In this document: positions 34,177 through 63,370 of the stretch, one piece after another | Layout of the letters: each line of letters begins with the position of its first letter | Numbering within the stretch: the first letter of the stretch is position 1 | Assembly (NCBI RefSeq): GCF_002240355.1 | Contig: NZ_CP016353.1 | Span: forward strand, 4,266,501-4,330,500 | DNA length: 64,000 nt | Direction of reading: 5' to 3' | Origin: Prauserella marina | GTDB lineage: Bacteria > Actinomycetota > Actinomycetes > Mycobacteriales > Pseudonocardiaceae | Program-made: the position numbers and the translations under genes | Notes under the pieces: generated by a model | Database searches by the model: none | The model's input: only the letters and a program-made list of their open reading frames with translations | Told to the model about the DNA's origin: nothing

Positions 34177-34468
34177 CGCTGGTCAGCGGGATGGCAAGAC
34201 TGAAGCGGAGTGAAGACTCCGTTCGCGCGGGATTCGGGCGGATATCACCCGATAGGCCATCGCCAGGCGCCGCGACCGGTCCGTTCGCACCGGTCCCCTG
34301 GGCTTCACACCGGTCCCGGACCTCTGGCCGGTCGCCGCCGGTTCGCGGCGGCGAGCAAGAACCCCGCCGCGTAGCCGGTTCTGAAATCGAGCGTCACTGC
34401 CTGAGGCACCAGCGCCGAACCGGGCAGGGACCGGGTGTCCTCGCGCTACGACATGACGAACACGACCG

Positions 34469-35563
34469 TTACGACATGACGATCGAGGCGCGCGTGACCT
34501 CGCGCCGCGCCGACGCGTCGAGGGCATCGACGATGCGTTCGAGCGGGAACTCCGCGTCGACGAGCCCTTCGAACGGGAACCGGCCGCCCTCCTCGGCGAG
34601 GAAGTCGAGCGCCTGCTTGAGGTAGAACGGCGCGTACCGGTCGACGTGCAGGACGCGCAGAGCGCGCCGGGTGGCCAGCCCCGGGTCGTAGTCGACGACG
34701 GAGCCTGGCGAGAGGTTGCCCATGACGAGATACGTGCCGCCCCGCCTGATCAGGGACAGTCCCTCGGCGAACGCGGCCGGAACGCCCGTCACCTCGATCA
34801 TGCCGTCAGGGCCGTGCTGTTCGGTGAGGTCGTGGACCCAGGAGCGCCGCTCGTCGGCATCCGGCATCGCGCTGATGTCGAGCGTGTGATCCGCCCCGAA
34901 CCGGCGGGCCTGCTCAAGGCGTGCGGGCACGCCGTCGACGACGATGGTCCGGATGCCGCGCGTCGCCGCGACCGCGGTGGCGTAGAGACCGAGCCCGCCG
35001 GCCCCCTGGATGAGGATCGTCTGGCCTGGGCCGAAACCGGCCTGGTCGATGCCGTACATCACCTGGCTCAGTGCACAGTTCGCCGCCGCCGCGACGGAGT
35101 CGGGCACGCGGTCGGGCACGCGGTAGACGTGCTGCCGTGGCGTCGCGTAGTAGTGCGTCGCGAACGAGGTGTGGAAGTGAGGCCATTCAGTGGGTTGCTT
35201 GGCGTAGTGCTCGTAGGCGTTGTCGCACAGGTTCCACTCGCCGCGCACACAGTGAAAACAGCGCTCGCACGCCTGGAAGTAGACGACGGCGATCCGGTCG
35301 CCGACCGCGAGCGGGGCACCGGCGTTGTCGCGGTCGGTGCCTTCGCCGAGCGCCGCGACCACCCCGGTCATCTCGTGGCCGATCCCGCCGGAGCGCTTCA
35401 CGGGATGCTTGCCGTTCCAGATGTGCAGCTCGGAGCCACAGACATTCGCGCGCGTCGTGCGCATCACCAATGCCCCCGGCCCCGGCTCGGGAACGGGGAA
35501 CTCCCGCAGTTCGAGCTTGCCCGGCTCGGTCATGTAGGCCAGCTTGCCTGTTTGGACGGTCAT
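34469..35563 (-). CDS. Zinc-dependent alcohol dehydrogenase (MDR superfamily)
   Basis: 364 residues. The catalytic zinc site is expected from NVCGSELHIWNG (Cys) and GIGHEMTGVV (His/Glu). The structural zinc site is complete in CERCFHCVRGEWNLC, and the nucleotide-binding loop is GAGGLGLYA near residue 180. The start is the ATG at 35563, with GGAGAG about 7 bases upstream. It follows the TRAP large-subunit gene by 49 bases in the leftward operon, so it probably oxidises an alcohol or polyol made from or imported as the TRAP substrate. The substrate is unknown. Confidence 0.86.
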   Translation of the reverse strand: MTVQTGKLAYMTEPGKLELREFPVPEPGPGALVMRTTRANVCGSELHIWNGKHPVKRSGGIGHEMTGVVAALGEGTDRDNAGAPLAVGDRIAVVYFQACERCFHCVRGEWNLCDNAYEHYAKQPTEWPHFHTSFATHYYATPRQHVYRVPDRVPDSVAAAANCALSQVMYGIDQAGFGPGQTILIQGAGGLGLYATAVAATRGIRTIVVDGVPARLEQARRFGADHTLDISAMPDADERRSWVHDLTEQHGPDGMIEVTGVPAAFAEGLSLIRRGGTYLVMGNLSPGSVVDYDPGLATRRALRVLHVDRYAPFYLKQALDFLAEEGGRFPFEGLVDAEFPLERIVDALDASARREVTRASIVMS

Positions 35564-35612
35564 ACTTCGGCTCTCCACAGCGATAGTTCGGGCGGTGTGC
35601 GTGGTCGGTGGC

Positions 35613-37037
35613 TCACACGAGAGACGGGAGTGAGGTCACGATGGCGGGGGCGAATGCCAGCAACGCGACGACGGCGAGGTCGGAAAGGACGAACGGGACC
35701 GCCGCCTTGTAGATCTCCGACATCGGCATCGACTTCGGCGCGTACTGGCGCATGACGAACAGCGACATCCCGAACGGCGGAGTCACGGTCCCGATCTGGA
35801 TCGCGATGATCATCAGGATGCCGAACCAGATCGGATCGAATCCGGCGATGTGCACGATCGGCATGAACAACGGGATCGTCAGCAACACGATCGCGATCGA
35901 TTCGAGGAAGAGCCCGAGGAGGACCACGATCCCGAGCATGACGATCAGCAGCACTGTCGGATTGCCCGTGATGCTCGTGACCCCGTCCACGAACGCCGTC
36001 ACGGTGCCGCTTCCCGCCATCACCCTGCCGTAGATCGTGGCCGCGGCGATGATGAGGAATACCATCCCGGTCGCGAGCAGGGTGTGCTTGAGTGCCGCGA
36101 CGACGACCTCGCGGGTCAGCCTGCGCTGAACGACGAGAATCACGGCCGTCAGGCCGACCGCCACCGCCGCGGCCTCGGTCGGCGTCGCGATCCCGAACAG
36201 GATGAGCGCGAGCACGCCCGCGATCATGCCGACCAGCGCGACCAGGTTCAGCAACGAGCCGCGCTGATCGTCAGAGCCGCCTTCCGGCCCCTTCGGAATC
36301 GTGGCGGGGGCCTCGGACATCGTGGCGACCGCCGCAGGGGCTCCCGAATCGGCGGATTCCCTCCGCTCCTTGCTCGCGCGAGCCGAGCGCTTCCCGAGCA
36401 CGGCAGGCCGCTCCGCGCCGCCGAAGAAGGCCGACCACGCCCCCACCACGACGGCGTAACCGAGCGCCATGAGAATGCCGGGGATGATGCCCGCGATCAG
36501 CAACGGTCCGACCGGGACACCTGCCGTGGCTCCCCACACGATGACGACCGTGCTCGGCGGGAGCACCATCGCGAGCCCGCCGGAGCCGAGCACCGAGCCG
36601 ACCGCGAGGCGGCGCGAGTACCCCCGCCGCTCCATCTCGGGTACGAGCGTGCCCGCGAGCATCGCGGTCGAGGCCATCACCGAGCCGGACAGCACCCCGA
36701 GCACGGCACCCATGCCGACGGAAAGGAACGCGAGCCTGCCGGGCAAACGCGCGAGCCCGCGCTCGGCCGCCCCGATCGCGGAAAAGGCCACGCCGGAGCG
36801 GAACAGGAGCTCGCCCATGAGAATGAACATCGGTATGGCCGTCAGGGTGAAGGTCGCCAGCCCCGAGACCATCGACACGACGGTCATCTCGATGCCGGGC
36901 GAAAACCCGTAGAGCAGGACCGCACCGACGGACGACACCACGAGCAACGCGACGGCCACCGGGATGCGCAGGAGCACCAGAACTCCAAGGCCCACCACGA
37001 AGATCGCGAGCCACGTCGCTGGACTGAGGTCGATCAT
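35613..37037 (-). CDS. TRAP transporter large permease (DctM-like)
   Basis: 474 residues, about 12 membrane helices. Typical DctM segments: VALLVVSSVGAVLLYGF, LTAIPMFILMGELLFRSG near residue 64, VLSGSVMASTAMLAGTLVPEM near 115 and GTVTPPFGMSLFVMRQYAP near the end. An Ala/Ser/Glu-rich hydrophilic insertion at about residues 206-260 between the two halves is longer than usual. The ATG at 37037 overlaps the small-permease stop by four bases. It drives sodium-coupled uptake of an organic acid captured by the binding protein. Confidence 0.92.
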   Translation of the reverse strand: MIDLSPATWLAIFVVGLGVLVLLRIPVAVALLVVSSVGAVLLYGFSPGIEMTVVSMVSGLATFTLTAIPMFILMGELLFRSGVAFSAIGAAERGLARLPGRLAFLSVGMGAVLGVLSGSVMASTAMLAGTLVPEMERRGYSRRLAVGSVLGSGGLAMVLPPSTVVIVWGATAGVPVGPLLIAGIIPGILMALGYAVVVGAWSAFFGGAERPAVLGKRSARASKERRESADSGAPAAVATMSEAPATIPKGPEGGSDDQRGSLLNLVALVGMIAGVLALILFGIATPTEAAAVAVGLTAVILVVQRRLTREVVVAALKHTLLATGMVFLIIAAATIYGRVMAGSGTVTAFVDGVTSITGNPTVLLIVMLGIVVLLGLFLESIAIVLLTIPLFMPIVHIAGFDPIWFGILMIIAIQIGTVTPPFGMSLFVMRQYAPKSMPMSEIYKAAVPFVLSDLAVVALLAFAPAIVTSLPSLV

Positions 37038-37591
37038 GCTTGCCCCTCTTCGGACACGTTCTCGGTGGCGTCGCGCTCGTCGCTGACGGGGGCGCCGGTG
37101 TGCAGCCGTTCGAGCGCGGTACGAAGTTCGTTGGCCGCGAACAGAACGAGGCCGACCGTGAGACCGAGCGTCAGAATCCATCTCGGAAGCCCGAACGTCG
37201 ATCCCATCCGGATCCCGGTGCCGAGGTCACGCACGAATATCTGGACGGCGAACCAGCCGAACGTTCCCGCGATCGCCGCGGTAACGAACCGCGAGGCGAC
37301 GTCGAGTTTGTGGTTGGTGCGCACGAAGCGGCTCGGTATCAGATCGACCCGCACGTTGCGGTCGTACAGCGCGACCATGCCGAGCGCGAAGAAGACCGTG
37401 AGCGGCAGCGCGAACTCGGTCGACTCGAACAGGAACCTGTTCGGTGCCCTGAACACGTACCGCAGCACGACTCCCGCGATCGTCGCGAGCGCCATGTAGA
37501 CCAAACCCGCGCCCGCGATCACGGCACTCGCCGTGGTCACGGCTCGCAGCACCCGGTCGGCCTGGCCTGGCCCTGCCTTGGCGGACTTCAT
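37034..37591 (-). CDS. TRAP transporter small permease (DctQ-like)
   Basis: 185 residues with four predicted transmembrane helices. The DctQ signature VVLRYVFRAPNRFLFESTEF near residue 44 and the ALPLTVFFALGMVALYDRNVRVDL stretch (two adjoining segments) are typical. ATG at 37591 with a four-base overlap (ATGA) to the binding-protein stop, so the three TRAP genes are co-translated. Confidence 0.9.
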   Translation of the reverse strand: MKSAKAGPGQADRVLRAVTTASAVIAGAGLVYMALATIAGVVLRYVFRAPNRFLFESTEFALPLTVFFALGMVALYDRNVRVDLIPSRFVRTNHKLDVASRFVTAAIAGTFGWFAVQIFVRDLGTGIRMGSTFGLPRWILTLGLTVGLVLFAANELRTALERLHTGAPVSDERDATENVSEEGQA

Positions 37592-38610
37592 CGTGCCTCG
37601 TAGAAATCGCGGACTTCGGTCGAGCGGGGCGCGCGCTCTTCCAGCAGCTCCCACCCGATGTCCCTTGCCCGTGACTGGAACCGCTCGGTTTCGGCTGCCG
37701 TCGGTTCGAGCAATTCCTTGCCGTCTTCTGCCCAGCGCTGGTACTCGTCCTCGACGACAGGCCGGTAGATGTCCGGCAGCGAGACCTCCAGTTCGGTCAT
37801 CGCCTTGTCGAGCGCCTCACGCGTGCGGTCGTCGAGACTGTGCCAGGTCTGGAGGTTCACCAGCAGCGGGTAGCGGATCGTCAGGTACGGCGCCATGTAC
37901 GACGCCTTGATGGGCTCGGCGATCCCGAGGTCGTACATCCCGCTGTTGCCCGCCGCGAAGCCGTCGATCGTGCCGCGCTCCATCGCCGTGTAAATCTCGC
38001 CGACCGGCATGTTCACGACCTCCGCGCCCAGCGCCTCAAGCATGGGTTGCTGGGTGGGACCGCCTCGCATCAGCCAGCCCGTCAGGTCGGGACGGCTGAT
38101 GTCGATCTCGGTCCAGCGCGAGCCGAAATGCAGCATGTAGGCCATTTCGGAGATCGTCACGCCCAGCACGCGCAGGCCGACCTCCTCGTGCCAGTTGTTG
38201 ATGACGTCGAGTGCCCCTGACTCCCGGTCGACCGCCGGGGCGTTGGGTGTCAGGTCGAACACCTCGGCCTCCGGCAGGATCTGCGTGTAGTACGCGCTCG
38301 ACACGCTCGCCAGGTCGAGCGCTCCGCTCTGCACGTTCTCGGCCGCGTCGTTGGGGGCGATCGTCTCGGGGCCACCGACATAGTCGATGGTGATCCAGGG
38401 CGCGTCCTTCTCAAGGCGCTCGATCATCTTCCAGAGCCCGAGGTTCTCGGGCGCGTCACGGGTCTGTGTCGTCGCCAGGCGCAGGGTGACCTTGCCGTCC
38501 TGGGACACGACGCCGCCGCCTGCCGAAAGACAGCCGCTGAGGACCACCGAGGCGAGGGCGCCTGCCCCGAGGCGCAGCGCGGCCCTGCGCCGGTATTTGG
38601 GTGCTGACAT
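37588..38610 (-). CDS. TRAP transporter substrate-binding lipoprotein (DctP/TAXI-DctP family)
   Basis: 340 residues. The N-terminus KYRRRAALRLGAGALASVV ends in the lipobox LSGC (Cys27), so it is a surface lipoprotein, possibly exported by Tat because of the arginine cluster. The body is a DctP fold: VTLRLATTQTRDAPENLGLWKM (split), AMERGTIDGFAAGNSGMYDLG and YPLLVNLQTWHSLDDRTREAL. DctP usually has an arginine that grips the substrate carboxylate; it was not located with certainty. First gene of the leftward operon, ATG with GAAGGAG upstream. Confidence 0.88.
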   Translation of the reverse strand: MSAPKYRRRAALRLGAGALASVVLSGCLSAGGGVVSQDGKVTLRLATTQTRDAPENLGLWKMIERLEKDAPWITIDYVGGPETIAPNDAAENVQSGALDLASVSSAYYTQILPEAEVFDLTPNAPAVDRESGALDVINNWHEEVGLRVLGVTISEMAYMLHFGSRWTEIDISRPDLTGWLMRGGPTQQPMLEALGAEVVNMPVGEIYTAMERGTIDGFAAGNSGMYDLGIAEPIKASYMAPYLTIRYPLLVNLQTWHSLDDRTREALDKAMTELEVSLPDIYRPVVEDEYQRWAEDGKELLEPTAAETERFQSRARDIGWELLEERAPRSTEVRDFYEAR

Positions 38611-38647
38611 CGTCGTCGCGTCTCCTTCTCGCCATCGAGTCGGCCGA

Positions 38648-38677
38648 ATTATTGTCATATGATCCGACATTTCGCAA
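38648..38677 (-). promoter_or_regulatory. Promoter and operator-like site of the TRAP operon
   Basis: On the minus strand, TTGCGA (38677-38672), an 18-base spacer and AATAAT (38653-38648) make a plausible promoter about 30 bases before the binding-protein leader. Inside it, ATTGTCATATGAT (38651-38663, plus-strand reading) differs by two bases from the site at 38814, so a regulator bound here would cover the -10. Confidence 0.55.
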
Positions 38678-38796
38678 CCAGGCCGGTCCGGCTGCCCGAG
38701 AAAAACAGGACACCGAGAGCGCTGATCGGCATACATATCAGCAGCTCAGCGCATATTTTCAGGTGAATCTGGCAAACTTTCGCCGCCGCCCTCGGA

Positions 38797-38829
38797 TTGA
38801 CGTCTCCTCTCAGATCGTCATACGATCCG
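38797..38829 (+). promoter_or_regulatory. Promoter and operator-like palindrome of the permease operon
   Basis: TTGACG (38797-38802), an 18-base spacer and TACGAT (38821-38826) precede the permease ATG by 38 bases. The perfect inverted repeat ATCGT-CAT-ACGAT (38814-38826) overlaps the -10. Both operator-like sites are followed by CCG. The GntR/FCD regulator encoded at the end of this operon is the likely binder (inference). Confidence 0.58.
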
Positions 38830-38863
38830 CCGGTATCGACGACGAGGACCAAGGAGGATTCTC

Positions 38864-40234
38864 ATGTCGAATGCGATCGAGCCGAGTGGCTCCTCCCCCG
38901 CGGAGCCTCGGCGAGACATGCGCCGCGTCGCCATCGCGGTCGGGATCGGCAACTTCATGGAATGGTTCGACTGGGGCCTCTACGGCTTCTTCGCGACCAT
39001 CATCGGAGCCCAGTTCTTCGCCGATTCCTCACCCGTCGTCGGCCTGCTGTCGGCTCTCGGCGTCTTCGCCGTCGGGTTCGTTTTCCGGCCGATCGGCGGC
39101 TTCGTCCTCGGCCCCATCGGCGACAAGTACGGCCGCCGCGTCGCGCTGTCCATCGCCGTCCTCCTCATGGGATTCGGCACGACGATGATCGGCCTGCTGC
39201 CGACGTACGCGGAGATCGGCATCTGGGCACCCATCCTGCTCGTGCTGATGCGCTGCATACAGGGCTTTTCGACGGGCGGTGAGGCCACCGGCGCCAACGC
39301 CTTCATGGTCGAGAGCGCGCCAGGACACCAGCGCGGCCGGTACGGCAGCATCAACTCGGCTTCCTCGGCCGCCGCACTGCTTTCGGCAAGCCTGCTCGCG
39401 CTGTGGCTCACCACCAGCCTCTCCGAGGACGACCTGAACTCGTGGGGCTGGCGACTGCCCTTCATCCTCTGCGCCCCGCTCGCGCTGGCCGGGCTCTACC
39501 TCCGCCTCAAGCTTGAGGACACGCCCGTGTTCGAGCACATCAAGCAGGAGCAGGAGATCGACCATTCGTCACTGTGGCGAAAGATCGCGCGAGACCGCAG
39601 GCCGGTTCTGCTGACGCTCGCGATCGGTGCCGTGCAAGGCATCGGCTACTACTACCTCGGCACCTACGCGGTGAACCTGCTGACGGTCTCGGTCGGCCTC
39701 GAACGTGCCGACGCGCTCGCGCTGATCGCCGTCGCACTGGCGATCTACATCGGATTCTGTGTCGCGGCCGGATTCGCCATCGATCGGTTCGGCCGCCGTA
39801 GCGTCAACCTCGTCGGCACACTCGGCTTCGTCCTGTCGTTGTTCCCGGTCTTCGCTCTGCTGGCGACCGGCGAGGGCGTTCTCATCGTGCTCGGCCTGAT
39901 CGTGCTCGGCCTGTTCCAGTCGCTGGTGAGCGTCTCGACCGTCGTGCTCATGGTCGAACTGTTCCCGTCGACCTCGCGGGCGAGCGGCAGCGCGTTCGGG
40001 TTCAACTTCGCCAACGTCATCTTCTCCGGCCCGGGTCCCTACATCGCCGCGTGGCTCGCCGCCTCGACCGGCAGCGCCGTCGCGCCAGCCGGATACCTCG
40101 TCCTCGTCTCGCTGCTCGCGCTGCCGATCCTCTACCGCTGGCTGCCCGAGACGAAGAACCGCGATCTCAACAGCACGGACGCCGTCGCACACCACCCATC
40201 CAGCTCGCGCGCAAAGGAGATCAACAGCGCATGA
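38864..40234 (+). CDS. MFS metabolite:proton symporter (MHS family, ProP/KgtP type)
   Basis: 456 residues, 12 membrane helices. MHS hallmarks: NFMEWFDWGLYGFFA near residue 30, RPIGGFVLGPIGDKYGRR near 76 and RCIQGFSTGGEATGANAFMVE near 128. Members import organic acids such as shikimate, citrate or dicarboxylates. Strong AAGGAGG upstream of the ATG. First gene of the rightward operon. Together with the divergent TRAP system it gives the cluster two uptake routes, perhaps for substrate and a related acid. Confidence 0.9.
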   Translation: MSNAIEPSGSSPAEPRRDMRRVAIAVGIGNFMEWFDWGLYGFFATIIGAQFFADSSPVVGLLSALGVFAVGFVFRPIGGFVLGPIGDKYGRRVALSIAVLLMGFGTTMIGLLPTYAEIGIWAPILLVLMRCIQGFSTGGEATGANAFMVESAPGHQRGRYGSINSASSAAALLSASLLALWLTTSLSEDDLNSWGWRLPFILCAPLALAGLYLRLKLEDTPVFEHIKQEQEIDHSSLWRKIARDRRPVLLTLAIGAVQGIGYYYLGTYAVNLLTVSVGLERADALALIAVALAIYIGFCVAAGFAIDRFGRRSVNLVGTLGFVLSLFPVFALLATGEGVLIVLGLIVLGLFQSLVSVSTVVLMVELFPSTSRASGSAFGFNFANVIFSGPGPYIAAWLAASTGSAVAPAGYLVLVSLLALPILYRWLPETKNRDLNSTDAVAHHPSSSRAKEINSA

Positions 40235-41076
40235 CGACGCCCCCGCCGAACCCGCCGAACTGGCGGGTGACGATCGCGAAGTACGGCACGCGGTCGACGA
40301 CGAAGTCCGACGTCTACCTCAACCACCACATCTACGGGCAGCCCGACGATCCGATCGGCATGGACTACTTCGTCTGGGTCCTGCAACGTCCAGGAAGGAC
40401 GATCGTCGTCGACACCGGCTTCTCGGAATCGGGCGGCGCGGCGCGGAACAGAACGTTCGTCGCGGAGCCCGCACGGATCTTCGCAGCGCTCGGCGTCGAT
40501 CCCGGCGACGAGCCAACGGTCGTTGTCACGCACGCCCACTACGACCACATCGGCAATCTGGGCTTGTTCCCGCGATCGGAGATCGTCATCTCGGCAGCGG
40601 AACTCGCGTTCTGGACGGGCCCGCTCGCCGGGCGGGCCCAGTTCGCGCACTCCGTCGAGACCGGCGAGATCGCCCAGCTCGCCGCCGCGAACGAGGCGGG
40701 GCGGGTGCGCACGTTCGACGACGAACTCGAACTCGACGCCGGAGTGCGGATCATGCGCGTCGGCGGCCACACCCCTGGGCAGAGCATCGTGCTCGTCTCC
40801 ACCGACGAGGGCCCGGTGCTGCTCGGCTCTGACGCGGTGCACTACTACGAGGAATACGAAAGCGACATGCCGTTCGCGTTCGTGGCCGAGCTGCCCGCGA
40901 TGTACTCCGGTTTCGACCGGATCAGGGCAATGCTCGCCGACGGCACCGCGAAGCATCTCGTCTCGGGGCACGACCCGGCCACACTCGCCCGGTTCCGTCC
41001 GGTCGAGGAAGGGCCGCTCGCCGGCATCGCGGCGACGATCGGATCCATCGACACCAACGCCGAGGAGGCGCAGTGA
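40231..41076 (+). CDS. Metallo-beta-lactamase-fold hydrolase (N-acyl homoserine lactonase-like)
   Basis: 281 residues. The dinuclear zinc motif HAHYDH (H101-H103-D105-H106) is intact; further ligands are in GGHTPGQS, LLGSDAVHYYEEYES and the terminal SGHDPAT. This arrangement is that of AiiA-like lactonases, so lactone ring opening is the likely chemistry. In this context a sugar-acid or muconolactone-type lactone is more likely than a quorum signal. The ATG overlaps the permease stop by four bases (ATGA). Confidence 0.85.
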   Translation: MTTPPPNPPNWRVTIAKYGTRSTTKSDVYLNHHIYGQPDDPIGMDYFVWVLQRPGRTIVVDTGFSESGGAARNRTFVAEPARIFAALGVDPGDEPTVVVTHAHYDHIGNLGLFPRSEIVISAAELAFWTGPLAGRAQFAHSVETGEIAQLAAANEAGRVRTFDDELELDAGVRIMRVGGHTPGQSIVLVSTDEGPVLLGSDAVHYYEEYESDMPFAFVAELPAMYSGFDRIRAMLADGTAKHLVSGHDPATLARFRPVEEGPLAGIAATIGSIDTNAEEAQ

Positions 41077-41924
41077 TGAGCACGGCAGGACGGTTCGCGG
41101 GAAAGGTCGCGGTCGTCACCGGCGCGGCCTCGGGACTGGGGCGAGCCTCCGCGGTTCGGCTCGCGGGGGAAGGCGCGAACGTCGTCGCGGTCGACATCGA
41201 CACCGACGCCGTCACGGCCGTCGCGGCCGAGTTGCCGACCCGCTCGATCGCGGTCGGCGGCGACGTGTCCCGTGAGTCCGACGTCGAGACCTACATGCGC
41301 GCCGCCGTCGACGCTTTCGGGAAGGTCGATCTGCATCACCTCAACGCGGGTGTCTTCGGGAGCTTCGCGACCCTGCCCGACCTCGACGTCGACGACTTCG
41401 AGCGCGTGATGGCCGTCAACGTCAGGGGTCCGTTGCTGGGTTTGCGGGCGGCGTTCCGGCACTGGCGGACGAGCGGTGAGCGCGGCACGATCGCGCTCAC
41501 CGCGTCCATCGCGAGCCTCACCGGTGCCGCCGACCTCGTCCCCTACCAGGTTTCCAAGCACGCGGTCACCGGTCTCGTCCGGTCGGCGGCCGTCTACGGC
41601 GGCCCGCTCGGCATCCGGGTCAACGGCGTCGCGCCGGGGATCGTGCCGACCGAACTGTTCCGGAACGCGGCCTCGGCCACGGGCGGAAAGAACGACATGT
41701 CGCGCCGCGCTTCCACCGCGCCACTGCGCCGCGCGGGCAAAGCGGAGGAAATCGCGGGCGTCGTCTCGTTCCTGCTTTCCGACGACAGCTCGTACCTGAC
41801 GGGACAGCTCGTCGCCGCCGACGGCGGCGCGTCGGTCGTGAACACCGTGCGGCCATCTGGCGGCGCGGGAGCCTGGGACACCGAGGTCGTGGACTCCGCC
41901 CTGTACGAGGGGTGGGTCCGATGA
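41076..41924 (+). CDS. Short-chain dehydrogenase/reductase
   Basis: 282 residues, classical SDR. Cofactor motif TGAASGLG at 15-22, NAG at about 90-92, and catalytic Ser144, Tyr157 and Lys161 (YQVSK). VDIDT after the second strand has an aspartate that favours NAD over NADP. The C-terminus is longer than usual (SGGAGAWDTEVVDSALYEGW). GAGGAGG lies 7 bases before the ATG at 41076; a GTG at 41073 is an alternative. The ATG abuts the lactonase stop. Confidence 0.87.
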   Translation: MSTAGRFAGKVAVVTGAASGLGRASAVRLAGEGANVVAVDIDTDAVTAVAAELPTRSIAVGGDVSRESDVETYMRAAVDAFGKVDLHHLNAGVFGSFATLPDLDVDDFERVMAVNVRGPLLGLRAAFRHWRTSGERGTIALTASIASLTGAADLVPYQVSKHAVTGLVRSAAVYGGPLGIRVNGVAPGIVPTELFRNAASATGGKNDMSRRASTAPLRRAGKAEEIAGVVSFLLSDDSSYLTGQLVAADGGASVVNTVRPSGGAGAWDTEVVDSALYEGWVR

Positions 41925-42829
41925 CGCGGCGAGTCGGGTTCGTCGGCCTCGGGAACATGGGCGGCCGCATGACGCGATGCCTTGTCGACGCGGGCATCGA
42001 GGTAATGGGCTTCGACGCGCGTGCCGACGTGATCGCCGCAGCCGGGGCGAGCGCCGCGCCGAGCGCGGCCGACGTGGCGCGGGAGTGCGACATCGTCCTG
42101 CTTTCCTTGCCGGACAGCCGGGTCGTCGAGAGCGTCGTGTACGGCGAAGGTGAACTGCTCGCGGCGCTGCGCCCCGGGACGGTGGTCGTCGACCTGAGCA
42201 CCTCGGCTCCGGCCTCGACGCGACGGATCGCGGCCGACGCCGCCGAACGTGGCGCGACGTGGATCGACGCGGGCATCTCCGGTGGAGCGGCCGCGGCCGA
42301 GCGCGGCGCCCTCACCTTGATGGTCGGTGGCGATCCGGCGGCTCTGGACACGGTGCGGCCGGTGCTCGACCACCTCGCGACCAAGATCGTGCACTGCGGC
42401 GACATCGGCGCGGGGCACACGGTCAAGCTGCTCAACAACTTCCTCAACGCCGTGACGCTGTCGGCGACCTCGGAGGTGATGGTCGCCGCGAAGAAGGCGG
42501 GACTCGACCTCGACAACGTCCTCGACGTCATCAACGCGAGTTCGGGCGAGAGCTTCGCCAGCCGCAACCGGTTCCCTCGCATCATCCACGGCGACTATCT
42601 GGAGGGAGGGCTGACGAACACCTTGATGCTCAAGGACGTGACGCTCTACCTCGACCTCGTCGCCGAACTCGGCGTCACGAGCCTCAATTCGCCCGGCCCC
42701 GTCGCGAGTTTCGGGCTCGCCAGGGCGCTCGGGTACGCGGACCAGATCAGCAACAGGGTCGTCGACGCGATCGGCGACGTCTCGGGCGGCGTTCGGCTGC
42801 ACGACGCGAGCACGGAGGAGCGCGCATGA
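41921..42829 (+). CDS. 3-Hydroxyisobutyrate dehydrogenase-like beta-hydroxyacid dehydrogenase (copy 1)
   Basis: 302 residues. N-terminal Rossmann motif GFVGLGNMGGRM (GxGxxG at about 9-14), substrate motif DAGISGGAAAAERGALTLMVGG near 117, and the catalytic lysine/asparagine pair GHTVKLLNN (K169, N173). Members reduce or oxidise beta-hydroxy acids such as tartronate semialdehyde, 3-hydroxyisobutyrate or related acids. ATGA overlap with the SDR gene. A second, distinct paralogue lies two genes downstream. Confidence 0.88.
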   Translation: MTRRVGFVGLGNMGGRMTRCLVDAGIEVMGFDARADVIAAAGASAAPSAADVARECDIVLLSLPDSRVVESVVYGEGELLAALRPGTVVVDLSTSAPASTRRIAADAAERGATWIDAGISGGAAAAERGALTLMVGGDPAALDTVRPVLDHLATKIVHCGDIGAGHTVKLLNNFLNAVTLSATSEVMVAAKKAGLDLDNVLDVINASSGESFASRNRFPRIIHGDYLEGGLTNTLMLKDVTLYLDLVAELGVTSLNSPGPVASFGLARALGYADQISNRVVDAIGDVSGGVRLHDASTEERA

Positions 42830-43227
42830 TCCACATCCCGCCACGGCAACAGGCCGGAACAGCGGGGAAGGCAGGCTCACAGTTCACGGGCGTGGCTTTT
42901 CCCTACGTGACCATGGCGGCGACCGACGGAGTCGTCATCAACACGGTCGATTTCACGCCAGGAGCACGCACGCACTGGCATTCCCACGAAGACGGGCAGA
43001 TCCTGCAGGTCCTCGCCGGCCGGGGCCTGGTCCAGAGCGAAGGCGGCCCCGTCGTCATCCTGCGCGCCGGCGACACCGTCTGGGTCCCGCCAGGGGAACG
43101 GCACTGGCACGGAGCCGCGCCGGACAGCTTCATGGTGCACACCGCGATCTCGCTCGGCGAGACCACCTGGGACGCGCCCGTGGCGGAGGAAGAGTACCGC
43201 GCCAAAGCCGAGGAGAACGAGCGATGA
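42826..43227 (+). CDS. Single-domain cupin of the manganese hydroxynitrile-lyase type
   Basis: 133 residues, one beta-barrel. Metal ligands predicted from WHSHEDGQ (H52, H54, Q58) and ERHWHG (H93). This H-x-H-x3-Q...H pattern, the GAR-THWHSH and VWVPPGERHWHGAAP segments and the size closely resemble the bacterial cupin hydroxynitrile lyase of Granulicella tundricola (recalled from the literature). The physiological reaction of such cupins is unclear, so I call it only a metal-dependent lyase/isomerase candidate. ATGA overlap with the dehydrogenase before it. Confidence 0.85.
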   Translation: MIHIPPRQQAGTAGKAGSQFTGVAFPYVTMAATDGVVINTVDFTPGARTHWHSHEDGQILQVLAGRGLVQSEGGPVVILRAGDTVWVPPGERHWHGAAPDSFMVHTAISLGETTWDAPVAEEEYRAKAEENER

Positions 43228-43631
43228 CGACAGAGGGCAGCCACCACGAGAGCTACGAGCGAGGCATCGACATGCGCAAACGCGTGCTCGGCGCCGAGCA
43301 CGTCGAGCGCTCGCTCGCGAGCGTCAGCGAGTTCTCAAGGCCCATCCAAGAGCTCGTGACCGAATACTGCTGGGGCGAGGTGTGGACGCGACCGGGGATC
43401 GAACCGAGGACGCGGTCGATGCTCAACCTCGCGATGCTGACGGCCCTCAACCGGCCGCACGAACTCGCGGTGCATGTCCGAGGCGCCGTCCACAACGGCG
43501 TCACGGCCGCCGAGATCCAGGAGGTCCTTTTGCAGACCGCGATCTACGTCGGCGTCCCGGCCGCGCTCGAATCGTTCCGCATCGCGGAGCGCGTGCTGAC
43601 CGAACTCGGCCAGGATGCCCAAGATGACTGA
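43224..43631 (+). CDS. Carboxymuconolactone decarboxylase-family protein (PcaC-like)
   Basis: 135 residues, the size of true 4-carboxymuconolactone decarboxylase. RGIDMRKRVLGAEHVERSL near the start, then TEYCWGEVWTRPGIEPRTRSMLNLAM and HVRGAVHNGVTAAEIQEVLLQTAIYVGVPAA follow PcaC closely. The two-cysteine AhpD redox motif is absent, so a decarboxylase or isomerase role is more likely than peroxidase. ATGA overlap with the cupin gene. Confidence 0.87.
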   Translation: MTTEGSHHESYERGIDMRKRVLGAEHVERSLASVSEFSRPIQELVTEYCWGEVWTRPGIEPRTRSMLNLAMLTALNRPHELAVHVRGAVHNGVTAAEIQEVLLQTAIYVGVPAALESFRIAERVLTELGQDAQDD

Positions 43632-44562
43632 GACTTCGATGACTTCGATCGGTTTCATCGGCCTCGGCCGGATGGGCCTGCCCATGGCGGGCAGGCTCAC
43701 CTCGGCCGGTTACCGCGTCCTCGGCTTCGATCTCTCCGAGGACGCGCTTTCCCGGCTCACGGCCGAAGGCGGGCACGCGGCCGATGACGCGGCGGCCGCC
43801 GCGGCCGCCGACATCGTCGTTCTCATGCTCCCCGACTCCGGAGCGGTCGAGCACGTTCTCGGCAAGGCCGACGTCGCGGCAGCCCTCGGCGAGGGAACGC
43901 TGGTGGTCGACATGAGCTCATCCGAACCGTTGCGCACCCGCGCGCTGGCCGAAAAACTTCGGCGGCAGGGCGTCGGCCTTGTGGACGCACCGGTATCGGG
44001 TGGAGTGCGGGGAGCGGAACGCGGCACACTGACGATCATGGTTGGCGGATCCGACGAGGAGATCGCGCGCGCCGAGCCGGTGCTCGGCAATCTCGGCACC
44101 GTGGTGCGCGCGGGCGGGACCGGAGCCGGTCACGCCGTGAAAGCCCTCAACAACCTCATGTCGGCGACCCACCTGTGGATCACCAGCGAGGCGATGCACG
44201 CCGGAAAGGGCTTCGGAATCGACCCCGAGGTGATGCTCGCGATCGTGAACGGCTCCAGCGGGCGCAGCGGCTCGACCGAGAACAAGTGGCCGAACTTCGT
44301 CCTGCCAGGTGGTTACGACTCCGGATTCGCCCTTCGGCTCATGCTCAAGGACATGCGGATCGCCGCGGACCTCTCGCGGGCCGTCGGGGTCGAACCAGTG
44401 CTCGGCGACGACGCGATCAGCCGGTGGGCGGCCGCGGCCGACGAACTCGCCGCCGACGCCGACCACACGGAGATCGCGCGCTGGATCGCCGACCACGCGG
44501 GCGAACCCTCGGCAACGGAACCGAAAACGGCGGATGTGCCCGCCTCGCGCGGGATTCGCTGA
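43624..44562 (+). CDS. 3-Hydroxyisobutyrate dehydrogenase-like beta-hydroxyacid dehydrogenase (copy 2)
   Basis: 312 residues. GFIGLGRMGLPMAGRL (cofactor loop, about 10-25), DAPVSGGVRGAERGTLTIMVGG (121-142) and the catalytic GHAVKALNN (K173, N177) are all intact. It is clearly a paralogue of the gene at 41921 but far from identical, suggesting different steps or stereoisomers. The ATG at 43624 has AGGA 8 bases upstream and overlaps the previous gene by 8 bases; an in-frame ATG at 43615 is possible. Confidence 0.88.
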   Translation: MTETSMTSIGFIGLGRMGLPMAGRLTSAGYRVLGFDLSEDALSRLTAEGGHAADDAAAAAAADIVVLMLPDSGAVEHVLGKADVAAALGEGTLVVDMSSSEPLRTRALAEKLRRQGVGLVDAPVSGGVRGAERGTLTIMVGGSDEEIARAEPVLGNLGTVVRAGGTGAGHAVKALNNLMSATHLWITSEAMHAGKGFGIDPEVMLAIVNGSSGRSGSTENKWPNFVLPGGYDSGFALRLMLKDMRIAADLSRAVGVEPVLGDDAISRWAAAADELAADADHTEIARWIADHAGEPSATEPKTADVPASRGIR

Positions 44563-44588
44563 CAGATGGAGAGCGGGAGACCTAAGGT
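44559..44588 (+). promoter_or_regulatory. Internal promoter for the GntR gene
   Basis: CTGACA (44559-44564), an 18-base spacer and TAAGGT (44583-44588) form a good promoter whose start point would fall on or next to the ATG at 44596, implying a leaderless mRNA. It would let the regulator be made without the catabolic operon being on. No copy of the 13-bp operator is seen here. Confidence 0.5.
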
Positions 44589-44595
44589 GTCAGCC

Positions 44596-45294
44596 ATGAC
44601 GACGGCCACGAACGACGGGCAGAGCCAGCTCGCGCCCGTCGTCCGGGTGGGCGCACCGCTGCGTGAGCAGGTGATCGATTCCCTGCGCCAGGCGATCATG
44701 GAGTTCCGGCTCAAACCGGGCCAGCGGCTGGTGGAGCGGGAACTCATCGAATGGCTCGGCGTCTCGCGGACGACGATTCGCGAGGCCATCCGCGAACTCG
44801 CGTCCGAAGGGCTGGTCACGGTCGTCCCGCAGAAGGGCGCGCGAGTGAGCGCCCCGTCCCGCGAGGAGGCCGCCGACCTCTACGAGATGCGGGCCTCGCT
44901 CGAATCGCTCATCGTGCGGCGCTTCGTCGAACGCGCGACCGACGAGCAGGTCGCCCGGATCGTCGCGGCGGTCGACGAATACGAGCGCGTCGTCGACGCC
45001 AGTGGCGACATGCACGCCGCGCTCGCCGCGAAGTCCGGGTTCTACCGGGTGCTCGTCGAGGGGGCTTCGAGCGCACCGCTGCAACAGATTCTCGAAGGTA
45101 TCCAGGCACGCGTGCAGATGCTTCGGGTGACGTCGCTGTCGCAGCCCGGCCGGCTCGGCGACGTCGTCGTGGAACTGCGCGAGATCGTCGAGGCCATCGA
45201 GCGTCGCAACGCCGCTCGCGCCTCGCGGTTGTGCGCCGAGCACATCATGATGGCCGCGCACACCGCGCTCGGCAACCTCCCCGACGGCGACTGA
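44596..45294 (+). CDS. GntR-family regulator with FCD ligand domain
   Basis: 232 residues. The N-terminal winged helix has LREQVIDSLRQAIMEF and ERELIEWLGVSRTTIREAIREL near residues 52-73. The all-helical FCD domain (about 95-225) is of the FadR/VanR group, with the metal-binding residues probably in the AARASRLCAEHIMMA helix and upstream. FCD regulators sense organic acids. It is probably the repressor of both divergent operons. The ATG at 44596 fits the leaderless promoter and the AAGG eight bases upstream; a start at 44566 is less likely. Confidence 0.88.
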   Translation: MTTATNDGQSQLAPVVRVGAPLREQVIDSLRQAIMEFRLKPGQRLVERELIEWLGVSRTTIREAIRELASEGLVTVVPQKGARVSAPSREEAADLYEMRASLESLIVRRFVERATDEQVARIVAAVDEYERVVDASGDMHAALAAKSGFYRVLVEGASSAPLQQILEGIQARVQMLRVTSLSQPGRLGDVVVELREIVEAIERRNAARASRLCAEHIMMAAHTALGNLPDGD

Positions 45295-45304
45295 CTCGGT
45301 CCTG

Positions 45305-45337
45305 AGGGTGCCGCGTGCCTTGGTCACGCGGCGCCCT
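45305..45337 (+). terminator. Hairpin after the GntR gene
   Basis: AGGGTGCCGCGTG / CACGCGGCGCCCT form a 13-bp stem with one G-U pair and a 7-base loop. It lies 10 bases past the gntR stop and before the next gene, so it should reduce or end readthrough. No T-tract. Confidence 0.62.
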
Positions 45338-45375
45338 GACCTGTCGTCACCTCACCTCGACCAGAAGGAGACGTC

Positions 45376-46146
45376 GTGAGCCTGACGCCGCGACAGCAAG
45401 AGATCAAAGACGAGTTCATCGCCGTGCGCGGAACCTGGAGCGAGGCGTGGGAGAGCATCCTGCGCCAGGACGCGGAGTTTCTGCGTGCCTATCTGAATCT
45501 GTCGGCCGTGCCGTTCCGCAAGAACCACCTCGACGATCTCACGAAGGAGTTCGTCTTCATCGCGGTCGACGCGGCGGCGACGCACATGTACTCACCGGGC
45601 ACGCGCGTGCACATCGCGACCGCGTTGCGCCTTGGCGCCACGCCCGCGCAGATCATGGAGGTCATCGAACTCACCTCGACACTGGGCATCCACGCGATGA
45701 ACATCGGCGTGCCGATCCTCGTCGAGGTGCTGGAGGAAAAGGGGCTGCGGACCGAGGCGGCACCGCTCGACGACGAGCAGAAGCGCATCAAGGCCGCGTT
45801 CGTGGAGCATCGCGGCTACTGGCACCCGTTCTGGGACCACATGCTCGAACTCGACCCCGAGATGTTCGAGGCGTACCTCGATTTCTCAAGCGTGCCGTGG
45901 AAGACCGGCACACTCTCACCGAAGGTCAAGGAGCTCGTCTACATCGCGTTCGACTCCGCGGCGACGCATCTCTACGTACCGGGTCTCAAACTCCACATCG
46001 AGAACGCGATCGGCCACGGCGCGACACCGGGGGAAATCCTTGAGGTCATGGAGATCGCGAGCGTTCTCGGTATCCACGCCGCGACCACCGCGGTGCCGAT
46101 CCTCGAAGAGGAGATCGAGCGCTTCGAGCGGGAGCCGAGGGGCTGA
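45376..46146 (+). CDS. Tandem carboxymuconolactone decarboxylase-like protein without cysteines
   Basis: 256 residues made of two homologous all-helical CMD domains (about 15-120 and 140-245). Compare KEFVFIAVDAAATHMYSPGT with KELVYIAFDSAATHLYVPGL, and the paired ATALRLGATPAQIMEVIELT / ENAIGHGATPGEILEVMEIA. The whole protein contains no cysteine, so it cannot be an AhpD-type peroxidase. GTG start with AGAAGGAG upstream. It is separated from gntR by a hairpin, yet is the same kind of enzyme as the PcaC-like gene at 43224. Function inferred as ring-opened lactone processing. Confidence 0.8.
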   Translation: MSLTPRQQEIKDEFIAVRGTWSEAWESILRQDAEFLRAYLNLSAVPFRKNHLDDLTKEFVFIAVDAAATHMYSPGTRVHIATALRLGATPAQIMEVIELTSTLGIHAMNIGVPILVEVLEEKGLRTEAAPLDDEQKRIKAAFVEHRGYWHPFWDHMLELDPEMFEAYLDFSSVPWKTGTLSPKVKELVYIAFDSAATHLYVPGLKLHIENAIGHGATPGEILEVMEIASVLGIHAATTAVPILEEEIERFEREPRG

Positions 46147-46166
46147 ACCGCACTGGCGCCGCACTG

Positions 46167-46841
46167 TCAGCCGGACACCGGCAACCGGAGCAGAGCGGGG
46201 CCGTCCGGCAACCGGATCTCCAGCGCCTTGATGTCCGCGCGGTCCAAGGTGGTTCCGATGGAAAGCTTCGCGGTGTCCTTCGGCGCCGCGTACCAGGTCG
46301 CGAGGCGCTGGGTACCGCCGTCGGCGCGCACGGCCACCAGCACGTAATCCCCGCCGGAGCCACCGCTGTAGCTGCACGACATGTCGACCTGCGTACCGGA
46401 CCCGGAATCGGTCAGGCTCACATCGGCGGCCACCGGGTAGGCCCCGAGCGGAGTCATGGCCGTCCCCTCCCGCTCGGTGCTCGCGGGGAGCACCAGCGCG
46501 AACACCAGTGCCAGCGCTGCGGCGATCCCGGCCGCCGCGACCGCCACCGCACCAACGGTCCTGCCGCGCCTGCGCCGCTTGCGCACACTCCACAGCAGCG
46601 AGGGAAGCAGGTCGGCGGGCAACGGTTCCCTCGAAGGACGGTGACCGGCGTCGACCTGGCCGAGCAGACCCGGCATTCCCGCAAGTTCCCTGACTCCGCG
46701 GGCGCAGCCGGCGCAGTGCCGCAGGTGTTCTTCGAACGCCGCCCTGTCCTCGGGGGACAGCGCCCCGAGCACGTACGCGGCATCGAACGTCGCGAACGGA
46801 TCCGTTCGCCCGGACACGGATACCTCGTCGCCCCCGTTCAC
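46167..46841 (-). CDS. Anti-sigma factor with zinc-finger (zf-HC2) N-terminus
   Basis: 224 residues. The cytoplasmic N-terminus has the anti-sigma zinc motif HLRHCAGCARGV (H-x3-C-x2-C) near residue 39, one transmembrane helix at about 96-117, and an extracytoplasmic domain ending in ALEIRLPDGPALLRLPVSG that probably senses or is cleaved on stress. The GTG start overlaps the sigma-factor stop by four bases, the usual arrangement for a sigma/anti-sigma pair. The trigger is unknown. Confidence 0.87.
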   Translation of the reverse strand: MNGGDEVSVSGRTDPFATFDAAYVLGALSPEDRAAFEEHLRHCAGCARGVRELAGMPGLLGQVDAGHRPSREPLPADLLPSLLWSVRKRRRRGRTVGAVAVAAAGIAAALALVFALVLPASTEREGTAMTPLGAYPVAADVSLTDSGSGTQVDMSCSYSGGSGGDYVLVAVRADGGTQRLATWYAAPKDTAKLSIGTTLDRADIKALEIRLPDGPALLRLPVSG

Positions 46842-47350
46842 CGGGTCACCCCCCTCTCCTCAAGCACGAGCCGCAGGGCACGCAGCGCGTAGTGCGTTCT
46901 CGACTTGACCGTTCCCTCGGCGACTCCCAGCCTCGCCGCGGCGTCGGCGACCGACATTCCTCGAAAGAAGCACAAGCCGAGCACCTCGCGGTGCCGAGGC
47001 GACAGTTCACCGAGCGCGTCGGCGACGATCCAGCCCTGTACCGCCCTTTCGGTGTCGTCCGGAACGGCAAGCTCCGGCACCTGGTCCGTCGCGACCTCCG
47101 CCCGCGCGGCCGCCGAGCGCCAGCCGTCGATGGCGATCCGCCTCGCCACGGTGAACAACCAGGCGCGAGCCGACCGCTGGGACTGGTCGAGGACCTTCGG
47201 ATGCCGCCACGCCCTCAGCAGGGTCTCCTGAACGACGTCCTCGGCTTTCGCGCGGTCGCCATGGGTGAGGTGCAGCGCGTACGACCACAGCGCGGCGGCG
47301 TGCTCGTCGTGCAGGGCACGCATCAGCCGGGGTTCCGCGCCCTCGTTCAC
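46838..47350 (-). CDS. ECF RNA polymerase sigma factor
   Basis: 170 residues: region 2 (ALWSYALHLTHGDRAKAEDVVQETLLRAW, in two parts, near 19-47, with RAWLFTVARRIAIDGWRS) and region 4 (LSPRHREVLGLCFFRGMSVADAAARLGV then EGTVKSRTHYALRALR near 118-160). It resembles the SigK/SigL group paired with RskA/RslA-type anti-sigma factors. The GTG at 47350 overlaps the stop of the upstream membrane-protein gene (GTGA); a longer upstream frame is inside that gene. Confidence 0.9.
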   Translation of the reverse strand: MNEGAEPRLMRALHDEHAAALWSYALHLTHGDRAKAEDVVQETLLRAWRHPKVLDQSQRSARAWLFTVARRIAIDGWRSAAARAEVATDQVPELAVPDDTERAVQGWIVADALGELSPRHREVLGLCFFRGMSVADAAARLGVAEGTVKSRTHYALRALRLVLEERGVTR

Positions 47351-47733: not shown

Positions 47734-47845
47734 CGTCGCCTCCAGCCCTCGCGGATCGGTACACCTATGACACGGTGGCGGACCCGATCGGGTTCGATCG
47801 GGGCGCGCGGTGAACCCGATCCCCGGTCACCTCGTGTCCAGACAC

Positions 47846-48301
47846 ATGACTGCCCAATCACACACCCGCCGCACCGTCATCACCAGTGGAGCCGCGGTAG
47901 CCGGAGCAGCCGTGGGTACGGTCGCGCTCGCCGCGTGCGGCGGCGGCGATTCATCCTCGCCGGCCGACCAGGGCGGTTCCGGTGAATCCGGTCCGCCCGC
48001 ACAGCCAGGACAGCGCATCGCGGCGGTGAACGACGTTCCCGTCGGTGGCTCCACGGTGATCACCACCCCCAGTGGTCAGGAAGCCGTGCTCGCCAGGGAG
48101 TCGGACACGAAAGTGAGCGCTTTCAGCGCGATCTGCACCCACCAGGGCTGCGCGGTCACCGCGGAGGGCGCCGAACTGCGCTGCCCTTGCCACGGTTCGA
48201 TGTTCGACGCCTTCACCGGGGCCGTGAAACAGGGGCCCGCGACCGAGCCGCTGCCGAGCATCGCCGTCACGGTCGAGAACGGTGAGATCGTGACGGCATG
48301 A
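47846..48301 (+). CDS. Rieske [2Fe-2S] lipoprotein exported by Tat
   Basis: About 151 residues. Twin-arginine start SHTRRTVITSGAAVAG, then lipobox LAAC (Cys31), a Gly/Ser linker and a Rieske domain with ligands CTHQGC and CPCHGSMFD. It is too short to be QcrA and has no membrane helices beyond the signal, so it is a stand-alone electron carrier on the outer face of the membrane. The ATG at 47846 puts the arginines at residues 8-9; a GTG at 47810 is possible. Confidence 0.85.
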   Translation: MTAQSHTRRTVITSGAAVAGAAVGTVALAACGGGDSSSPADQGGSGESGPPAQPGQRIAAVNDVPVGGSTVITTPSGQEAVLARESDTKVSAFSAICTHQGCAVTAEGAELRCPCHGSMFDAFTGAVKQGPATEPLPSIAVTVENGEIVTA

Positions 48302-62485: not shown

Positions 62486-63370
62486 TCACCCTCCGTGTCG
62501 CGGCGCATCCGTGACACCCCGGTACAGCACCGCCATGTCCTCGTCAGCGTGCCCCGACTCTACGACGGCCGAAAGGTGGGACAGCGTCGCGCGCAACCCG
62601 CCAAGATCGGCTTCTCCCGCCGAGGCGAGCGCCAGTTCGGCGTCTTTCATGGCGAGTGCGGCGGTGAAGCTCGGCGGATAGTCGCCCGCGATCATCTCCT
62701 CGCCCTTGGCGTGCGCGTAGGCGGCGTCGAGCGGTCCGCCTTCGATGGCCTCCAGGAACAGCTTCGGGTCGACGCCGAGCAGGTGCGCGAGCGCGATGCT
62801 CTCCGCGGCGGCGTTGGTCAGGCCGAGCAACCACGTGTTGACCACGAGCTTGAGCTTGCTCGCCGCACCGGCGAGGCCCACCCACATCGTGCGGGAGCCG
62901 ACCGTGTCGAAGACCGGCGCGCACCGTTGCCCCAGCCGCAACGGACCCGAGGCCAGCACCACGAGCGTGCCCTGCTCGGCAGGCGCCCTCGTACCGAGGA
63001 CGGGGGCGTCGACGAAGGCGACTCCCGCGTCGGCGGCCAGCGCGGCGAGTTCGGCGGTCCACTCCGGCCCGACCGTGCTCATCTGCAACCACACCGCGTC
63101 CTCGGCGAAGGCTTCCAGCGCTGGATTCACCGTGTCGTGCACCGCGCGGCCCTCGGACAACATCGTCACCACGAGTCCCGCACCGGCGACGGCCTCGCGT
63201 GGAGTGTCCGCCACGATCGCGCCCCGTTCGGCCAGCGCGCGGGTCTTGGCCGTCGTCCGGTTCCACACCCTGACCGGGAGCCCAGCCCCGAGCAGATTCG
63301 CCGCCATCGGCTCGCCCATGGTCCCTGTCCCCAGCACGGCGACCGTCGGCGACGGTGTCGGCACCGGCAT
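62486..63370 (-). CDS. NAD(P)-dependent beta-hydroxyacid dehydrogenase-like oxidoreductase
   Basis: 294 residues. Rossmann motif AVLGTGTMGEPMAANL near residue 11, substrate loop DAPVLGTRAPAEQGTLVVLASG near 121 (the usual SGG is replaced by LGT), and the catalytic lysine/asparagine in SKLKLVVNTW. It is the third member of the 3-hydroxyisobutyrate dehydrogenase superfamily in this window, but unlinked to the catabolic cluster and the most divergent. Substrate unknown; ATG with AGGGGAG upstream. Confidence 0.85.
   Translation of the reverse strand: MPVPTPSPTVAVLGTGTMGEPMAANLLGAGLPVRVWNRTTAKTRALAERGAIVADTPREAVAGAGLVVTMLSEGRAVHDTVNPALEAFAEDAVWLQMSTVGPEWTAELAALAADAGVAFVDAPVLGTRAPAEQGTLVVLASGPLRLGQRCAPVFDTVGSRTMWVGLAGAASKLKLVVNTWLLGLTNAAAESIALAHLLGVDPKLFLEAIEGGPLDAAYAHAKGEEMIAGDYPPSFTAALAMKDAELALASAGEADLGGLRATLSHLSAVVESGHADEDMAVLYRGVTDAPRHGG

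Follow-up and report, generated by a model that had tools for sequence, protein, structure and literature searches.

Among the described pathways that resemble the locus treated here, lumichrome catabolism in Nocardioides simplex employs a cobalt-dependent hydrolase that opens a pyrone, then a cupin for the opened product and, it is proposed, an aldolase thereafter (passages of PMC12746152), and an itaconate cluster includes a 2-hydroxyparaconate lactonase, whose substrate is the lactone of a branched hydroxy-dicarboxylate (passages of PMC9875883). The 64-kb window of the Prauserella marina genome analyzed here (C1:4,266,501-4,330,500 of 6.99 Mb; coordinates below are positions in this window unless preceded by C1 or a locus name) contains, at 34,469-46,146, an island of thirteen genes that form two divergent operons. 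The leftward operon encodes DctP, DctQ and DctM, a complete tripartite ATP-independent periplasmic (TRAP) transporter set, and a zinc alcohol dehydrogenase (ADH). The rightward operon encodes a metabolite:H+ symporter (MHS), a metallo-beta-lactamase-fold (MBL) hydrolase, a short-chain dehydrogenase/reductase (SDR), a beta-hydroxyacid dehydrogenase (HAD1), a cupin, a PcaC-like carboxymuconolactone decarboxylase-family protein (CMD), a second beta-hydroxyacid dehydrogenase (HAD2), an FCD/GntR regulator and a tandem CMD protein (CMD2). The island is one insertion unit with a matching pair of boxes and a recurrent seven-gene core. We read it, with a probability of about 55%, as an FCD/GntR-regulated, horizontally moved catabolic unit, predicted to act on a small carboxylated lactone or hydroxy acid.

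An inserted unit with a recurrent seven-gene core

The proteins that flank the island were searched in five relatives, and the sites were compared by BLAST against the 31-50 kb stretch of the window. In three relatives (L157, L158 and L159) the left and right flanks are only 171, 241 and 315 bp apart, against 11.9 kb in the window; the left flank reaches positions 34,251, 34,251 and 34,062, and the right flank resumes at 46,166, 46,160 and 46,166, respectively. A second Prauserella genome (G014) has the same thirteen genes at 91% DNA identity on a contig other than that of its flank site (L160). The latter holds about 3.9 kb with no BLAST match to that stretch of the window, and the site may therefore take up insertions repeatedly. 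In the fifth relative, which belongs to another genus (G018), the two flank genes are on different contigs. Because the site is nearly empty in three relatives and the same thirteen genes are found elsewhere in G014, the island is, by sequence comparison, a single insertion unit, probably one that was moved horizontally.

An alignment of the tandem CMD protein (A1) was scanned over 84,980 species genomes, which gave 202 relatives, of which the best 80 were kept. Leaving out the one from the same genus (L037), there are 79 related loci (L038-L116), all of them chosen by their tandem CMD gene and scored for the other genes by tblastn thresholds. The core set is MBL-SDR-HAD1-cupin-CMD-HAD2-CMD2, and all seven genes are present in 41 of these loci. 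Gene by gene, CMD2 (selected for) is present in 79, HAD1 in 69, the cupin and MBL in 67 each, HAD2 in 63, SDR in 57, CMD in 55, FCD in 41, MHS in 17, ADH in one and TRAP in none. These counts are lower bounds, because 16 of the loci are shorter than 19 kb; 33 of the 63 that are at least 19 kb long have all seven core genes. The neighbor pair HAD1>cupin occurs 66 times and HAD2>CMD2 60 times, and there are smaller sets as well, with only MBL, SDR and CMD2 in six loci and CMD2 alone in four. Pairwise identities of the core families correlate at 0.57-0.82 over the 42 seven-gene loci (L037 included, species kinship uncorrected). The joint recurrence of the seven core genes in 41 of the 79 loci exceeds chance. 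The cassette is uncommon: a match to the CMD2 profile at 1e-60 is present in just two of 396 evenly drawn Actinomycetota genomes, that of the window and another. A viral origin was considered and rejected, since none of the 104 pattern matches in a viral-contig scan encoded a relative.

CMD2 does follow the rightward cassette, as the first-pass annotation had it, but it belongs to the conserved core and is not an appendix. The TRAP genes and the zinc ADH, which were also taken for pathway members, did not hold up in that role: in the samples searched, Prauserella and a single further genus are the only ones where they accompany the core, and their near absence from the 79 loci and presence in few family genomes led us to reject them as core genes. 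A close DctP is present in three of 150 family genomes at 1e-30, in all three divergent to an MHS gene; at 1e-60 only the window's own genome has one among 296 genomes of the class, and plasmid records contain distant relatives only. An MBL match at 1e-40 is found in 12 of the 150 family genomes, some of which have no cassette.

Palindromic boxes and gene layout

Two boxes, ATTGTCATATGAT and ATCGTCATACGAT, are conserved when the divergent regions of the window, G014 and G018 are aligned. With no more than one mismatch allowed, ATYGTCATAYGAT matches nowhere else in the whole genome, and the reversed control pattern has no match there. When a 14-base form of the box with up to two mismatches was sought in the window only, two matches were reached in 8 of 100 shuffles, so the argument rests on the genome-wide count and on conservation. 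The looser ATYGTNNNAYRAT has 10 matches in the genome, eight of them with a different spacer; its control has 1 forward and 1 reverse. Four more palindromes, ATTGTTSAACAAT, are present at C1 307973, 898390, 1357685 and 4766011 and may serve another regulator as its operator.

The 79 related loci contain 56 sites of the form AYYGTNNNACRRT, 45 of them between predicted genes and spread over 33 loci, compared with 0-7 intergenic sites for each of seven control palindromes. Predicted intergenic sequence makes up 170,818 of the 1,525,743 bases, and the binomial probability of the intergenic count is 7e-33 if kinship among loci is ignored. With permuted half-sites the motif itself scored 28, two permutations that coincide with it (Y includes T) scored 33 and 16, and the others at most 11. 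The box is also found upstream of cassette genes in Acidiphilium cryptum and in Paraburkholderia and Sodalis plasmids, and in related loci boxes adjoin several operons of companion genes. Core and box recur, as judged from sequence, in many soil and plant-associated bacteria for which we found no description of the set.

FCD-class GntR proteins have operators that are palindromes of the GTNNNAC type. The FCD protein presumably binds both boxes, and the two operons are probably one regulon under its control; similar palindromes in front of related cassettes, found in other Actinomycetota as well as in Burkholderiaceae, Acidiphilium and Sodalis, support this. The shared boxes and insertion as a unit agree with the earlier view of one catabolic unit whose genes are probably co-regulated.

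The features are listed in Table 1. All thirteen genes are present on the strands first described, and each protein has a Pfam family; the regulator has both the GntR helix-turn-helix and the FCD domain. Overlaps are present at six of the eight gene junctions of the rightward operon, and the description of them as almost all ATGA is fair, although one of the ATGA-type overlaps is GTGA. Five of these overlaps are 4 bases long if HAD1 starts at ATG 41921 (SDR/HAD1 would overlap by 13 bases from GTG 41912), and CMD/HAD2 overlap by 17 or 8 bases, depending on the HAD2 start. The HAD2-FCD gap is 3 bases, the FCD-CMD2 gap is 81 bases, and both TRAP gene junctions overlap by 4 bases. For DctP the start at 38610 is preferred over 38670, because the longer reading would cross box 1.

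Table 1. Features of the island and of its divergent region
Feature	Position	Strand	Basis
Whole inserted island, limits approximate	34252..46165	.	Flank comparison with L157, L158, L159
Zinc alcohol dehydrogenase (ADH_N, ADH_zinc_N), accessory	34469..35578	-	Pfam; NCBIfam best HpnZ 225.6, below cut-off 328.1
TRAP large permease DctM	35613..37037	-	Pfam
TRAP small permease DctQ	37034..37591	-	Pfam
TRAP solute-binding protein DctP	37588..38610	-	Pfam; best PDB match 4mnc
Presumed operator box 1, ATTGTCATATGAT, upstream of dctP	38651..38663	+	Alignment and genome motif search
Presumed operator box 2, ATCGTCATACGAT, upstream of MHS gene	38814..38826	+	Alignment and genome motif search
MHS permease	38864..40234	+	Pfam; TIGR00883 366.5, below cut-off 443.45
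MBL-fold hydrolase, probable lactonase, core	40231..41076	+	Pfam; metal ligands invariant
SDR, core	41073..41924	+	Pfam; S145, Y158, K162 conserved
HAD1, core; frame open from GTG 41912	41921..42829	+	Pfam; best PDB 3cky
Single-domain cupin, core	42826..43227	+	Pfam, scanned as frame 42259-43227
PcaC-like CMD, core	43224..43631	+	TIGR02425 156.4 vs cut-off 155.7
HAD2, core; possible start 43624	43615..44562	+	Pfam; best PDB 3cky
FCD-class GntR regulator, presumed binder of both boxes	44566..45294	+	Pfam
Tandem CMD protein (CMD2), core	45376..46146	+	Pfam; PDB 2q0t 429.5 bits with profile A1

Directly to the right of the island are genes for a zf-HC2 anti-sigma factor and an ECF sigma factor (46167-47350, 47810-48301), followed by one for a Rieske protein. 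Farther away, at 62486-63370, the start of a protein resembles, by eye, an NAD_binding_2-type dehydrogenase.

Putative route and its alternatives

The catalytic roles of the residues named here are those known for their families. The MBL protein has the HxHxDH motif, and its metal ligands H100, H102, D104, H105, H179, D200 and H246 are invariant in 26 of 26 sequences; six lactonase models match it at 30-73 bits, far below their cut-offs of 325-475 (best, AidB, 73.3 against 360). In 53 sequences the SDR residues listed in Table 1 reach at least 97% conservation; among solved structures this protein matches levodione reductase best, and cyclohexanol dehydrogenase ranks fourth. Both HADs have NAD_binding_2 and NAD_binding_11 domains, and among solved structures both are closest to 2-(hydroxymethyl)glutarate dehydrogenase (3cky; 168.9 bits for HAD1 and 179.9 for HAD2). 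Their catalytic lysine is conserved at 97% or more (K172 in 66 HAD1 sequences, K176 in 60 HAD2 sequences), and the serine of the SGG motif reaches that level in HAD2 but not in HAD1. Other conserved residues differ as well, which suggests that the two enzymes carry out different steps. The cupin, closest to TM1010 (2f4p) and then to 4bif, 4uxa and 8oz8, has an HxHxxxQ...H site (H51, H53, Q57, H92) that is invariant in 22 sequences. CMD passes the PcaC model by a margin of 0.7 bits, as a model match only, and CMD2 is a member of the 2q0t family.

From these families, the invariant sites and the companion genes we infer the following route. An organic acid would be imported by the TRAP or MHS carrier, and the SDR (with the zinc ADH in Prauserella) would make or interconvert a cyclic alcohol, ketone or lactone. 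Opening of the lactone by the MBL enzyme would give a hydroxy acid, and HAD1 and HAD2 would perform two separate NAD(P)-dependent oxidations, in which beta-hydroxy acids become beta-oxo acids or formyl acids. Decarboxylation by CMD and CMD2 would follow, with the cupin perhaps helping as an isomerase, hydratase or decarboxylase, and the product would enter central metabolism, in other hosts by way of an aldehyde dehydrogenase or aldolase. The whole would proceed with neither oxygenase nor CoA ligase, and the island itself encodes neither; in agreement with the first-pass annotation, none of the Pfam families matched by its thirteen proteins is that of a ring-cleavage dioxygenase or of a CoA ligase.

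G018 offers a single case in favor of one pathway. In its island (75-90% protein identity), ADH-TRAP is divergent to MHS-SDR-cupin-FCD; gene order and both boxes are kept, and MBL, HAD1, CMD, HAD2 and CMD2 are missing. A second locus (L025), adjoining a carrier of the sodium:sulfate/CitMHS type, has CMD2, FCD, HAD2, HAD1, MBL and CMD, and no SDR or cupin match. The only SDR match of this genome at 1e-45 is in the first locus and both matches to the HAD1 query are in the second; the two together make up the full set. The gene joints of the first (L120) have no clear remnants of MBL, HAD1, CMD or HAD2, and loss and gain are therefore indistinguishable there.

Carriers in related loci include MHS, sodium:sulfate/CitMHS and other MFS types and ABC systems with SBP_bac_8, Peripla_BP_6 or Peripla_BP_4 binding proteins; TRAP is that of the window. 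Companion proteins include an aldehyde dehydrogenase, DUF6282 proteins, an HpcH/HpaI aldolase, a thiamine enzyme, NIPSNAP, an alpha/beta hydrolase that scores as PcaD-like, a PtlE-like flavoprotein, an MmgE/PrpD protein, a dehydroquinase-II-like protein and an L-fuconolactonase-like amidohydrolase. All of their listed NCBIfam matches are below cut-off, including the lactonase or lactone-forming models (fuconolactonase, PcaD and PtlE) that are best for some and that, with the invariant metal ligands of MBL, speak for lactone chemistry. We note three further groups of proteins in these loci. A 304-residue protein (L064:731-1645 and nine further loci; its cluster is in 10 of 84 loci) adjoins the HpcH/HpaI aldolase gene and has no Pfam or NCBIfam match at 0.001. 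DUF6282 proteins (L079:7477-8406, L070:5996-6994), for which no literature was found, recur as well, in many cases as neighbors of the MBL gene; one of them matches the phosphotriesterase family very weakly and so may be another hydrolase. Proteins like cobalamin-independent methionine synthase are encoded near MBL genes (L066:4949-6154 and, by eye, L075:2542-3750), and in L066 a box precedes the operon that contains the gene.

Several points weigh against the reading of the island as a regulated unit for a carboxylated lactone or hydroxy acid. The exact box is absent from 46 of the 79 related loci, as well as from L025, L021, L024, L026 and L027, and binding of the boxes by the FCD protein is presumed from sequence. 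Carrier classes differ widely between loci, and therefore substrates may differ too. At 1e-45 an SDR match is absent from two further genomes, G056 and G134, so the split found in G018 is not a rule. Among the NCBIfam matches listed (the best 25 for the SDR and the FCD protein), no specific equivalog cut-off is reached except by the PcaC-like CMD. The solved structure closest to DctP, 4mnc (120 bits), reportedly contains benzoylformate, and the related 4nap and 4pgn reportedly contain indole-type (aromatic) acids; ligands of this kind would fit an aliphatic lactone poorly. The passages of PMC5812351 that we consulted do not name the ligand of 4mnc, nor were those of 4nap and 4pgn found in them.

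An unlikely alternative is a carbocycle route, in which oxidation of a cyclic alcohol by the SDR would give a ketone or diketone, MBL would hydrolyze a C-C bond of a cyclic diketone instead of a lactone and the HAD and CMD proteins would finish in a manner like that of phloroglucinol or inositol degradation. The solved relatives of the SDR fit such a route, as do the PtlE-like flavoprotein and the dehydroquinase-II-like protein of related loci with boxed operons, but the closest named MBL models, although far below cut-off, are those of lactonases. The phloroglucinol route itself was rejected: in the passages of PMC10470551 its enzymes after the SDR are of other families, a cyclase-family hydrolase and a 3-hydroxyacyl-CoA dehydrogenase-like enzyme, and these are absent from the Pfam matches of the island.

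Still less probable is a side route of aromatic-acid degradation in which a muconolactone-type compound would be the substrate of the PcaC-like protein, MBL would replace the enol-lactonase PcaD and ring cleavage would be encoded elsewhere in the genome. The PcaC match of CMD and the PcaD-like hydrolases of related loci (below cut-off) point that way, as do the aromatic acids reported as ligands of the DctP relatives. On the other side, the island has no dioxygenase or muconate cycloisomerase (the rest of the genome was not searched), another PcaC-model match is found elsewhere in the genome, in a 389-residue frame at C1:1,994,936, and two HADs and an SDR have no place in the protocatechuate pathway. 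That the TRAP-ADH operon and the MHS cassette are unrelated neighbors, divergent by accident, would suit the absence of TRAP from the 79 loci (some of them cut short) and the single ADH there (about 40%), but is very improbable given the boxes common to both operons, their joint insertion and the placement of DctP divergent to MHS in three of the three family genomes that have it closely.

Within our preferred reading, of a unit for a carboxylated lactone or hydroxy acid, it is a speculative and improbable extension that the core gives bacteria a hitherto undescribed route for the lactones of branched hydroxy-di- or tricarboxylates, combining a lactonase, NAD-dependent oxidation of hydroxymethyl to formyl groups and decarboxylation by CMD-fold proteins, with no CoA ester or oxygen, in a cassette that moved between phyla with its own operator. 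Equally conjectural substrates for such a route would be 2-hydroxyparaconate/itatartarate and other hydroxymethyl acids from fungi and plants. No described pathway with this gene set was known to the first-pass annotation, and none was found in our literature search; with most subscription papers outside its reach, this is weak evidence of novelty. With tandem-CMD relatives encoded by 202 stretches in the species genomes and six vaguely named enzymes alongside in 41 of the 79 loci, a probable single regulon with a recognizable box and swappable carriers makes this a single testable pathway, through which the 2q0t family, the TM1010-like cupins and several transporter proteins would all gain functions together.

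Comparison with described systems

The first-pass annotation held that the island is not a standard protocatechuate route, and we agree. It shares with the protocatechuate branch of the beta-ketoadipate pathway a protein that passes the PcaC model and the same logic of lactone hydrolysis, but PcaGH, PcaB and PcaD are absent from its thirteen proteins (the search covered these and not the rest of the genome). Since it thus has no ring-cleavage dioxygenase, cycloisomerase or enol-lactonase, and another PcaC match is found elsewhere, the standard route was rejected. The PDB entry 2q0t, a putative carboxymuconolactone decarboxylase subunit with no tested function in its listing, is of the same tandem CMD family as CMD2.

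The island MBL protein has the HxHxDH motif and the other metal ligands of the MBL-fold AHL lactonases and 4-pyridoxolactonase, but is far below their cut-offs, and there are no signaling or pyridoxine genes in the island. Pyridoxine degradation was rejected on the scores for 4-pyridoxolactonase (39.3 against 325) and pyridoxal 4-dehydrogenase (151.1 against 325). Both HADs resemble 3cky and the superfamily of HIBADH and tartronate semialdehyde reductase in keeping the catalytic lysine, but they miss the listed equivalog cut-offs by at least 87 bits, and the SGG serine is less conserved in HAD1. The anaerobic nicotinate context of 3cky is absent here.

Lumichrome catabolism, as the passages of PMC12746152 describe it, has a different substrate and was compared by description and not by sequence; it combines a metal-dependent ring-opening hydrolase, a cupin and a proposed aldolase, much as the predicted route of the island and its related loci would. 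The 2-hydroxyparaconate lactonase of the itaconate cluster is, in the passages of PMC9875883, another type of enzyme, but that cluster has an MmgE/PrpD protein, as do the related loci of Burkholderiaceae.

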